Origin: Egibacteraceae bacterium
GTDB lineage: Bacteria > Actinomycetota > Nitriliruptoria > Euzebyales > Egibacteraceae
Assembly: GCA_030446745.1 (NCBI GenBank)
Contig: JAUJMS010000011.1
Location: 17,423 to 81,422, forward strand
Direction of reading: 5' to 3'
DNA: 64,000 nt
Shown here: positions 4,226-21,755 of the stretch, piece by piece
Layout of the letters: each line of letters begins with the position of its first letter
Numbering within the stretch: position 1 is the stretch's first letter
Program-made: the position numbers and the translations under genes
The notes under the pieces: generated by a model
What the model was told of the DNA's origin: nothing
Database searches by the model: none
The model's input: only the letters and a program-made list of their open reading frames with translations

Positions 4226-5392
4226 TCAGCGGCGCCCCATGCCGACGCCCTGGCTGCGCTGGTAGTGCTTGCCCTCGGTCTGCAGTGACGGCGCGACCAT
4301 CACCTCGGCGCGCTGGAACTCCTTGATGGTGGCGTAGCCGCAGGTCGCCATCGAGGTGCGCAGCGCGCCGAACAGGTTCAGCGTGCCGTCGTTCTGCAAC
4401 GCAGGCCCGACGAGGATCTCGCGCAGGGACCCGATCTGGTCCACGCGGACGCGCGCCCCCCGCGGCAGGTCCGGGTGGAACGTCGCCATCCCCCAGTGGT
4501 AACCGCGGCCCGGTGCCTCCGCCGCCCGCGCGAGCGGGCTGCCGAGCATCACCGCGTCGGCGCCGCACGCGATCGCCTTCGCGACGTCGCCCCCCGTGCG
4601 CATCCCACCGTCGGCGATGATGTGCACGTAGCGACCGGTCTCCTCCAGATGGCGGCTGCGCGCGCCGGCGGCGTCGGCAATCGCCGTCGCCTGCGGCACG
4701 CCGATGCCGAGCACCCCGCGCGAGGTGCAGGCGTTGCCCGGGCCGACACCGACGAGGATGCCGGCGGCACCCGTGCGCATCAGGTGCAGGGCGCTCGCGT
4801 AGGACGCGCAACCGCCGACGACCACCGGCAGGTCGTAGCGGGCGATGAAGTCCTTGAGGTTCAGCGGCTCGCTGCGCGTGGACAGGTGCTCGGCGGACAC
4901 GACGGTGCCCTGGATGACGAGGATGTCGAGACCGGCGTCGAGGGCGTGCTTGTGCCAGCCCTCGACGCGCTGTGGGGTCAGGCTCGCCGCGACGGTCACA
5001 CCCGCCGCCTTGATCTCGGCGATCCGCCGGCCGATGAGCGCCTCGTCGACCGGCTGCTTGTACAGCTCCTGCATCCGCGCGGTGGCGACCTCGGGCGCGA
5101 GCTCGGCGATCTCGTCGAGCACCGGCTCGGGGTCCTCGTAGCGGGTCCACAACCCTTCGAGGTTGAGCACCGCGAGGCCACCGAGGCGGCCGAGCTCGAT
5201 CGCGCTGCGGGGCGACACGACCCCGTCCATGGCCGACGCGAGCAGCGGCAGACCGAACTCGTAGGCGTCGATCTGCCAGCGGATGTCGACGTCCTCGGGG
5301 TCACGCGTGCGCCGCGACGGGACGATCGCGATGTCGTCGAAGCCGTACGCCCGCCGGCCGCTCTTGCCGATGCCGATCTCGATGTCCGCCAC
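4226..5392 (-). CDS. guaB3: GuaB3-type IMP dehydrogenase family protein
   Basis: This is a TIM-barrel protein of the IMP dehydrogenase/GMP reductase family. It carries the loop [10 protein letters not shown] with candidate catalytic Cys222, the phosphate-binding [12 protein letters not shown] and a flap region, but no CBS domains. The length of 388 residues fits the actinobacterial/cyanobacterial GuaB3 group; at least one cyanobacterial member has been reported to act as a GMP reductase, so IMP dehydrogenase activity should not be assumed. The GTG start five bases after GGAGGT is preferred over an upstream start that would add nine unlikely residues. It is divergent from the DUF5319 gene. Confidence 0.92.
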
Positions 5393-5415
5393 CGCGCACC
5401 TCCGCGAGTAAGGGA

Positions 5416-5448
5416 ACACCCGGCCGCCGTGACGCGCTGGCCGGGTGT
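5416..5448. other. perfect 10-bp inverted repeat between guaB3 and the DUF5319 gene
   Basis: ACACCCGGCC (5416-5425) and GGCCGGGTGT (5439-5448) are exact inverse complements around a 13-base loop. The element sits just 5' of the guaB3 ribosome-binding site and about 60 bases before the divergent gene. It could be a leader hairpin, an operator, or a terminator-like insulator. No T tract follows in either direction. Confidence 0.6.
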
Positions 5449-18912: not shown

Positions 18913-20990
<2,078 letters not shown>

Positions 20991-21041
20991 CTCGTGGTGG
21001 GCGAACTTGCGCCTTCTGCGCTCAGGTCTGCGTGCGGCCAA

Positions 21042-21121
21042 TCCGTCGGTCCGACGCCAGGCTCCGCTCCGGCGGGGACCCCGGCCCCGTGGTCGCTGCG
21101 CCTGGCGTCGGGCCCGACGGA
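21042..21121. repeat. 20-bp inverted repeat with 39-base loop
   Basis: The arms 21042-21061 and 21101-21121 are inverse complements except for one extra base and lie between the divergent groES and bldD promoters. It cannot terminate either gene, since both read away from it. It may be an operator, an insulator or the relic of an inserted element. Confidence 0.55.
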
Positions 21122-21131
21122 CCCCGCAAAC

Positions 21132-21235
21132 GGAACGCAGCGAGGAGGGTCGTTTACGTAGCGTCACCCGGTGTTATCCTTAGGGAACGCTGCGAGGAGG
21201 GTCGTTTACGTAGCGTCACCCGGTGTTATCCTTAG
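21132..21235 (+). repeat. 52-bp tandem duplication in front of bldD
   Basis: The units 21132-21183 and 21184-21235 are adjacent and differ at one base (A21139 versus T21191). Each contains the palindrome CACC-C-GGTG and a promoter-like TTTACG ... TATCCT pair. The near identity implies a recent duplication or strong selection on both copies. Confidence 0.95.
21205..21232 (+). promoter_or_regulatory. bldD promoter (proximal copy; second copy at 21153-21180)
   Basis: TTTACG (21205-21210), a 16-base spacer and TATCCT (21227-21232) look like a vegetative promoter; the upstream 52-bp unit carries the same pair at 21153-21158 and 21175-21180. The palindrome TCACCCGGTGT sits between the boxes. Its TCACC half-site resembles half of the known BldD box, so autoregulation is possible but unproven. 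Confidence 0.45.
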
Positions 21236-21269
21236 TCACGACCGCGACAGCACGACGAAGGGTCCCGCC

Positions 21270-21755
21270 GTGTCCGACTACCAGCGCCGCCTCGGTGGTC
21301 GCCTGCGCGCGATCCGCCAGCAGCAGGGGCTGACCTTGCAGCAGGTCGAGGAGGTGTCGGCCGGCAAGTGGAAGGCGGTCGTCGTCGGCTCGTACGAGCG
21401 GGGCGACCGGGCGGTGTCGGTGGCAAAGCTCGCCGAGCTGTCGGAGTTCTTCAACGTCCCGGTGTCCGAGCTGCTGCCCAAGGAGGATCTCCCCGGTGCG
21501 CCGGCCAGCGCCAACGCCGCCGGGCCGTCGCGGGTGATGCTCGATCTGCGCCGCCTGTCGCGCTCCGACCTCGACCCGGACCTGCGCCCGGTGTCGCGCT
21601 TCGCCCACACGATCCAGCTCCAGCGCGGCGACTACAACGGCAGCGTGTTGACGATCCGCGGGGAGGACCTGCGCGCGCTGTCGGTGATCTACGGCACCGA
21701 CCCCGAGGACCTCGTCATCCGCCTGGAGGACGAAGGCGTGCTCGCCTCGGTCTGA
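21270..21755 (+). CDS. bldD: BldD-like transcriptional regulator with c-di-GMP motif
   Basis: A 161-residue regulator close to Streptomyces BldD. Residues 5-70 are a helix-turn-helix domain with the hallmark KWKAVVVGSYERGDRAVSV. The C-terminal domain carries QRGDYNGSVLTIRGED, in which Arg119-x-Asp121, eight residues, then Arg130-x-x-Asp133 match the RxD-X8-RxxD signature by which BldD binds tetrameric c-di-GMP. In Streptomyces the loaded protein represses sporulation genes. The GTG start follows AAGGG and begins directly before the HTH domain; upstream in-frame sequence is the duplicated promoter. The targets in this organism are unknown. Confidence 0.9.
   Translation: MSDYQRRLGGRLRAIRQQQGLTLQQVEEVSAGKWKAVVVGSYERGDRAVSVAKLAELSEFFNVPVSELLPKEDLPGAPASANAAGPSRVMLDLRRLSRSDLDPDLRPVSRFAHTIQLQRGDYNGSVLTIRGEDLRALSVIYGTDPEDLVIRLEDEGVLASV

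Follow-up and report, generated by a model that had tools for sequence, protein, structure and literature searches.

In Streptomyces coelicolor, BldD represses its own gene (PMC5650626). The protein recognizes a pseudo-palindromic box with the consensus 5'-TNAC(N)5GTNA-3', and its c-di-GMP signature is RXD-X8-RXXD (PMC4151990). The bldD promoter of S. coelicolor is also bound at GTNAC repeats by the response regulator MtrA, which represses bldD and whose sets of sites overlap there, with one half-site in common (PMC5650626). In three genomes in which BldD is 99% identical to our Streptomyces query, the box search used here as a positive control found two perfect boxes upstream of bldD in each case. 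The locus analyzed in this work lies in a 64-kb stretch of DNA (hereafter, the window), and its segment 21132-21235 is probably an autoregulated bldD promoter that is present twice, with binding and repression by BldD being suggested by homology and motif conservation.

The bldD gene and the duplication upstream of it

The product of the gene at 21270-21755 consists of an XRE-type HTH fused to a BldD-like C-terminal domain, which places it within the family (PF21179, BldD-like_C, 80.8 bits; HTH_3 also above cut-off). Its relatives of solved structure are BldD domains, including the DNA-binding domain from S. coelicolor. With regard to the Streptomyces comparison sequence, identity is 59%; the recognition region is kept, and the WKAVVVGSYERGDRAV segment is unchanged. 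Furthermore, the stretch RGD YNGSVLTI RGED fits the c-di-GMP signature. By these sequence features the protein is a BldD orthologue, and c-di-GMP binding is predicted from the kept motif; since its score against the NCBIfam BldD equivalog NF050110 is below the cut-off (203.4 vs 250 bits), we use the terms orthologue and family member and not the strict equivalog label. No second PF21179 protein turned up in the genome, in which five strong GGDEF matches, a partial one and six EAL matches were also detected.

Upstream of this gene, Tandem Repeats Finder reported 21132-21235 as an array with a period of 52, 2.0 copies and a 98% match, by a wide margin the top-scoring tandem array of the window, and a second repeat search concurred. 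Both units are identical at 51 of 52 bases, as originally predicted, and the sole mismatch (A/T at unit position 8, 21139/21191) falls outside the promoter and the boxes. The array occurs at a single place in the draft genome, and the duplication is confirmed as a genuine sequence feature. It is unlikely that it represents an assembly artefact or a mix of strain variants: although the assembly is a draft (2.71 Mb in 59 contigs, 85.5% complete, 4% contamination) and the genus is represented by one genome in our comparison, so that no independent copy is available, 104 bp fit inside ordinary short reads, and the one-base difference between the units is unlike a simple assembler duplication. The coordinates of all features are compiled in Table 1.

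Table 1. Features of the bldD-groES region, in window coordinates.
Feature	Position	Strand	Basis
groES, next to bldD and divergent from it throughout the order	20571..20879	-	relatives' loci
52-bp unit 1	21132..21183	+	repeat searches
-35-like TTTACG, unit 1	21153..21158	+	sequence; layout conserved in relatives
Putative BldD box 1, unit 1, TTACGTAGCGTCA	21154..21166	+	consensus match (PMC4151990)
Putative BldD box 2, unit 1, TCACCCGGTGTTA	21164..21176	+	consensus match
-10-like TATCCT, unit 1, inside extended TGTTATCCT	21175..21180	+	sequence; relatives' layout
52-bp unit 2 (T in place of A at its position 8)	21184..21235	+	repeat searches
-35-like TTTACG, unit 2	21205..21210	+	sequence; relatives' layout
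Putative BldD box 1, unit 2	21206..21218	+	consensus match
Putative BldD box 2, unit 2	21216..21228	+	consensus match
-10-like TATCCT, unit 2 (putative gene-proximal promoter)	21227..21232	+	sequence; relatives' layout
Fourth half-site GTCAC, carrying the 10-bp register on 3' of unit 2	21235..21239	+	sequence; one-mismatch double box here
Likely bldD ribosome-binding site, GAAGGG	21257..21262	+	sequence
bldD orthologue, 161 aa, GTG start, c-di-GMP motif RGD-X8-RGED	21270..21755	+	domains, alignment

Candidate promoter and BldD boxes within each unit

The predicted pair TTTACG-N16-TATCCT is present in both units, at 21153-21180 and 21205-21232, and its -35/-10 region is spanned in each by two full 13-bp BldD boxes, TTACGTAGCGTCA and TCACCCGGTGTTA, with zero mismatches to TNAC(N)5GTNA. 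These two boxes are offset by 10 bp and overlap by 3 bp, giving the combined pattern TNACN5GTNACN5GTNA, in which the left half-site belongs to the -35-like TTTACG and the right half-site to the extended -10 (TGTTATCCT). The original prediction had thus understated the operator content of the units: the CACC-C-GGTG palindrome that it placed between the promoter hexamers, likening one half of it to half of a BldD box, is the core of the full box 2, and each unit holds two complete, overlapping boxes. A plain sigma-70 scan made no call on the TTTACG-N16-TATCCT pair in either unit, because TTTACG matches TTGACA weakly, and a terminator scan was likewise uninformative.

Genome-wide motif statistics were derived from pattern searches. 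Of the six perfect BldD boxes in the window, four lie within 75 bp at the duplication and two elsewhere. In the 2.71-Mb draft assembly, the exact 23-bp double box is confined to the two duplication sites, and a few further sites appear when one mismatch is allowed. One of the latter (G000:C12:43005-43027; L053 at 1501) precedes a response-regulator/EAL gene by about 94 bp; a conserved feedback loop through this gene was rejected, as its orthologues in relatives are devoid of the double box, save for one single box in L073. A stricter pattern, TNACNCWGNGTNA, was dropped because it showed no genome enrichment (two sites vs three for the reversed control) and missed the real boxes.

Conservation across the order and neighbourhood

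The search for related loci covered the family (21 genomes) and the order (30 genomes) and yielded 28 bldD loci, with that of the window included. At least one perfect BldD box was found upstream of bldD in 26 of them. The exact double box is present in five relatives (L006, L007, L009, L010 and L014), and nine more carry it with one mismatch. Once near-identical loci had been reduced and the window was represented by a single unit, 29 pairs of GTNAC-type half-sites showed a distance of exactly 10 bp, compared to 1.7 +/- 1.3 (maximum 6) in shuffles, and none of the other distances from 6 to 21 came near this value. When aligned at the -10, the layout TTNAC...GCGTGAC...GTGTTANNNT recurs in each of the order's three families; this comparison is descriptive, since each -10 was picked by eye, while the half-site spacing test is independent of that pick. 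In some genera, box 2 is degraded. Moreover, box 1 coincides with the -35 and box 2, through its right half, with the extended -10, so that conservation of the boxes may partly reflect that of the promoter. Given the presence of a box in 26 of 28 loci and the recurrence of half-sites at 10 bp, the unit is a conserved, promoter-embedded operator through which BldD-(c-di-GMP) most likely represses its own gene, as it does in Streptomyces. In two related species (L009 and L010), the double box is preceded, at a distance of 25 bp, by a third perfect box, TCACGGACGGTGA, which represents another route of adding sites.

It is unlikely that this operator is read mainly by MtrA, a binder of GTNAC repeats, and not by BldD. 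Such a reading would be in line with the MtrA sites of the S. coelicolor bldD promoter, which are also GTNAC repeats in overlapping sets sharing one half-site (PMC5650626), and, because GTNAC is self-complementary, direct and inverted readings overlap and the two proteins are not fully separable by sequence. The 5-nt spacers between the GTNAC half-sites also fall within the 5-6 nt of direct MtrA repeats, but the outer half-sites are degenerate. MtrA repeats usually have a period of 11 bp (6 + 5), whereas that of the window and its relatives is 10 bp throughout; the S. coelicolor bldD-a MtrA site is, for its part, also one base shorter than usual (PMC5650626). In addition, the outer half-sites mostly lack the preceding G or the following C that MtrA repeats carry, and MtrA failed to bind the bldD promoter of S. 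venezuelae (PMC13189361).

Divergent orientation of bldD and groES was observed in all 27 loci covering both genes. A CIRCE-like element, TTGGCACTC-N9-GAGTGCCGA, precedes groES in the window (20930-20956), and 20 of 27 loci examined share its core GCACTC-N9-GAGTGC, a conservation that suggests HrcA control adjoining the BldD operator. Between the groES and bldD promoters, a conserved inverted motif GAGC...GCTCA was found at about 21000-21030 of the window and in L033, L034, L036 and L037 (in L037, TGAGCCTGATGCGCTCA). The same intergenic region of the window contains a very stable hairpin (21042-21121; -62 kcal/mol, z -5.7) that was not matched at any bldD locus of the relatives and is a dispersed repeat, with two more copies (92% and 89%) on another contig (G000:C31:4550-4626 and 5368-5441), both in the opposite orientation, about 0.8 kb apart and flanking an acetyltransferase-like gene; it was thus rejected as part of the BldD system. 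Rfam searches gave sub-threshold matches only.

The doubled promoter and its comparison with known systems

That a promoter with its operator is doubled in front of a bldD orthologue, as had been proposed, held up, and the layout of the unit is conserved across the order. A count of units in relatives, suggested along with that proposal, revealed that they keep a single promoter/operator unit, and that the doubling is absent from the 27 other loci. Here, the upstream self-repeat comparison gave 30/30 bases in the window and at most 20/30 elsewhere; in L003, only 99 bases upstream were covered, so that a more distal second unit might have escaped notice. Among the genomes compared, therefore, the doubling is private to one species and the single unit is the conserved state.

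Each unit would constitute a complete promoter, with its -35 and -10 overlaid by the two overlapping boxes, and the three GTNAC-type half-sites, 10 bp apart, would lie on about one helix face. At high c-di-GMP, BldD paired via a c-di-GMP tetramer would bind the boxes, cover the region from -35 to -10 and silence its own gene, and a drop in either c-di-GMP or BldD would open the promoter. Two boxes with a common half-site may not be occupied simultaneously. The duplication of promoter and operator, most simply through slippage or unequal recombination, would provide two alternative starts 52 bp apart. Since this offset is close to five helical turns, the four boxes would be in rough helical phase, an arrangement expected to make repression tighter or more cooperative.

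What the doubling itself brings about, be it such repression, the originally proposed rise in dosage, two starts or nothing, is speculation. As no compared relative has a doubled unit, ordinary control does not require it, and it may be neutral: a recent slippage product in which the operator works as proposed, the gene-proximal copy alone counts and expression is similar to that from a single unit. We give this possibility slightly less than an even chance and regard it as about as likely as tighter or more cooperative repression. Its restriction to this species, the 51 of 52 identical bases, which fit a recent event, and the sufficiency of single units in 27 other loci are in line with neutrality; in contrast, the sole difference lies outside the promoter and the boxes, and the copy has retained the whole promoter and operator in phase, although both circumstances could be due to chance. 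A bolder and quite improbable conjecture is that BldD in this order acts not on isolated palindromes but on a ladder of shared half-sites in helical phase, perhaps spreading along the DNA through c-di-GMP-bridged dimers, and that the doubling extends this ladder over two promoters in the present species, giving an unusually steep c-di-GMP switch.

If the unit is the BldD operator that its conservation points to, the autoregulatory BldD-(c-di-GMP) loop known from sporulating Streptomyces would extend to a distant actinobacterial order, in which the operator layout is different and conserved. Recognition of overlapping boxes by BldD could then be compared directly between the two layouts, and the naturally doubled promoter would allow single and double units to be compared with regard to cooperativity of a c-di-GMP switch. 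The single-unit bldD promoters of the order resemble that of the window in their boxes, their register to the -10 and the divergent groES neighbour, but possess one unit each, whereas the window has two. The Streptomyces bldD promoter likewise harbors two perfect TNAC-N5-GTNA boxes shortly upstream of the gene; these are, however, 15 bp apart and non-overlapping, while those of the window overlap at a 10-bp offset across the -35 to -10 region, and there the whole unit is doubled. Based on the upstream boxes of the Streptomyces promoter and its reported autorepression, the same function, with a different operator layout, is expected for the promoter described here.
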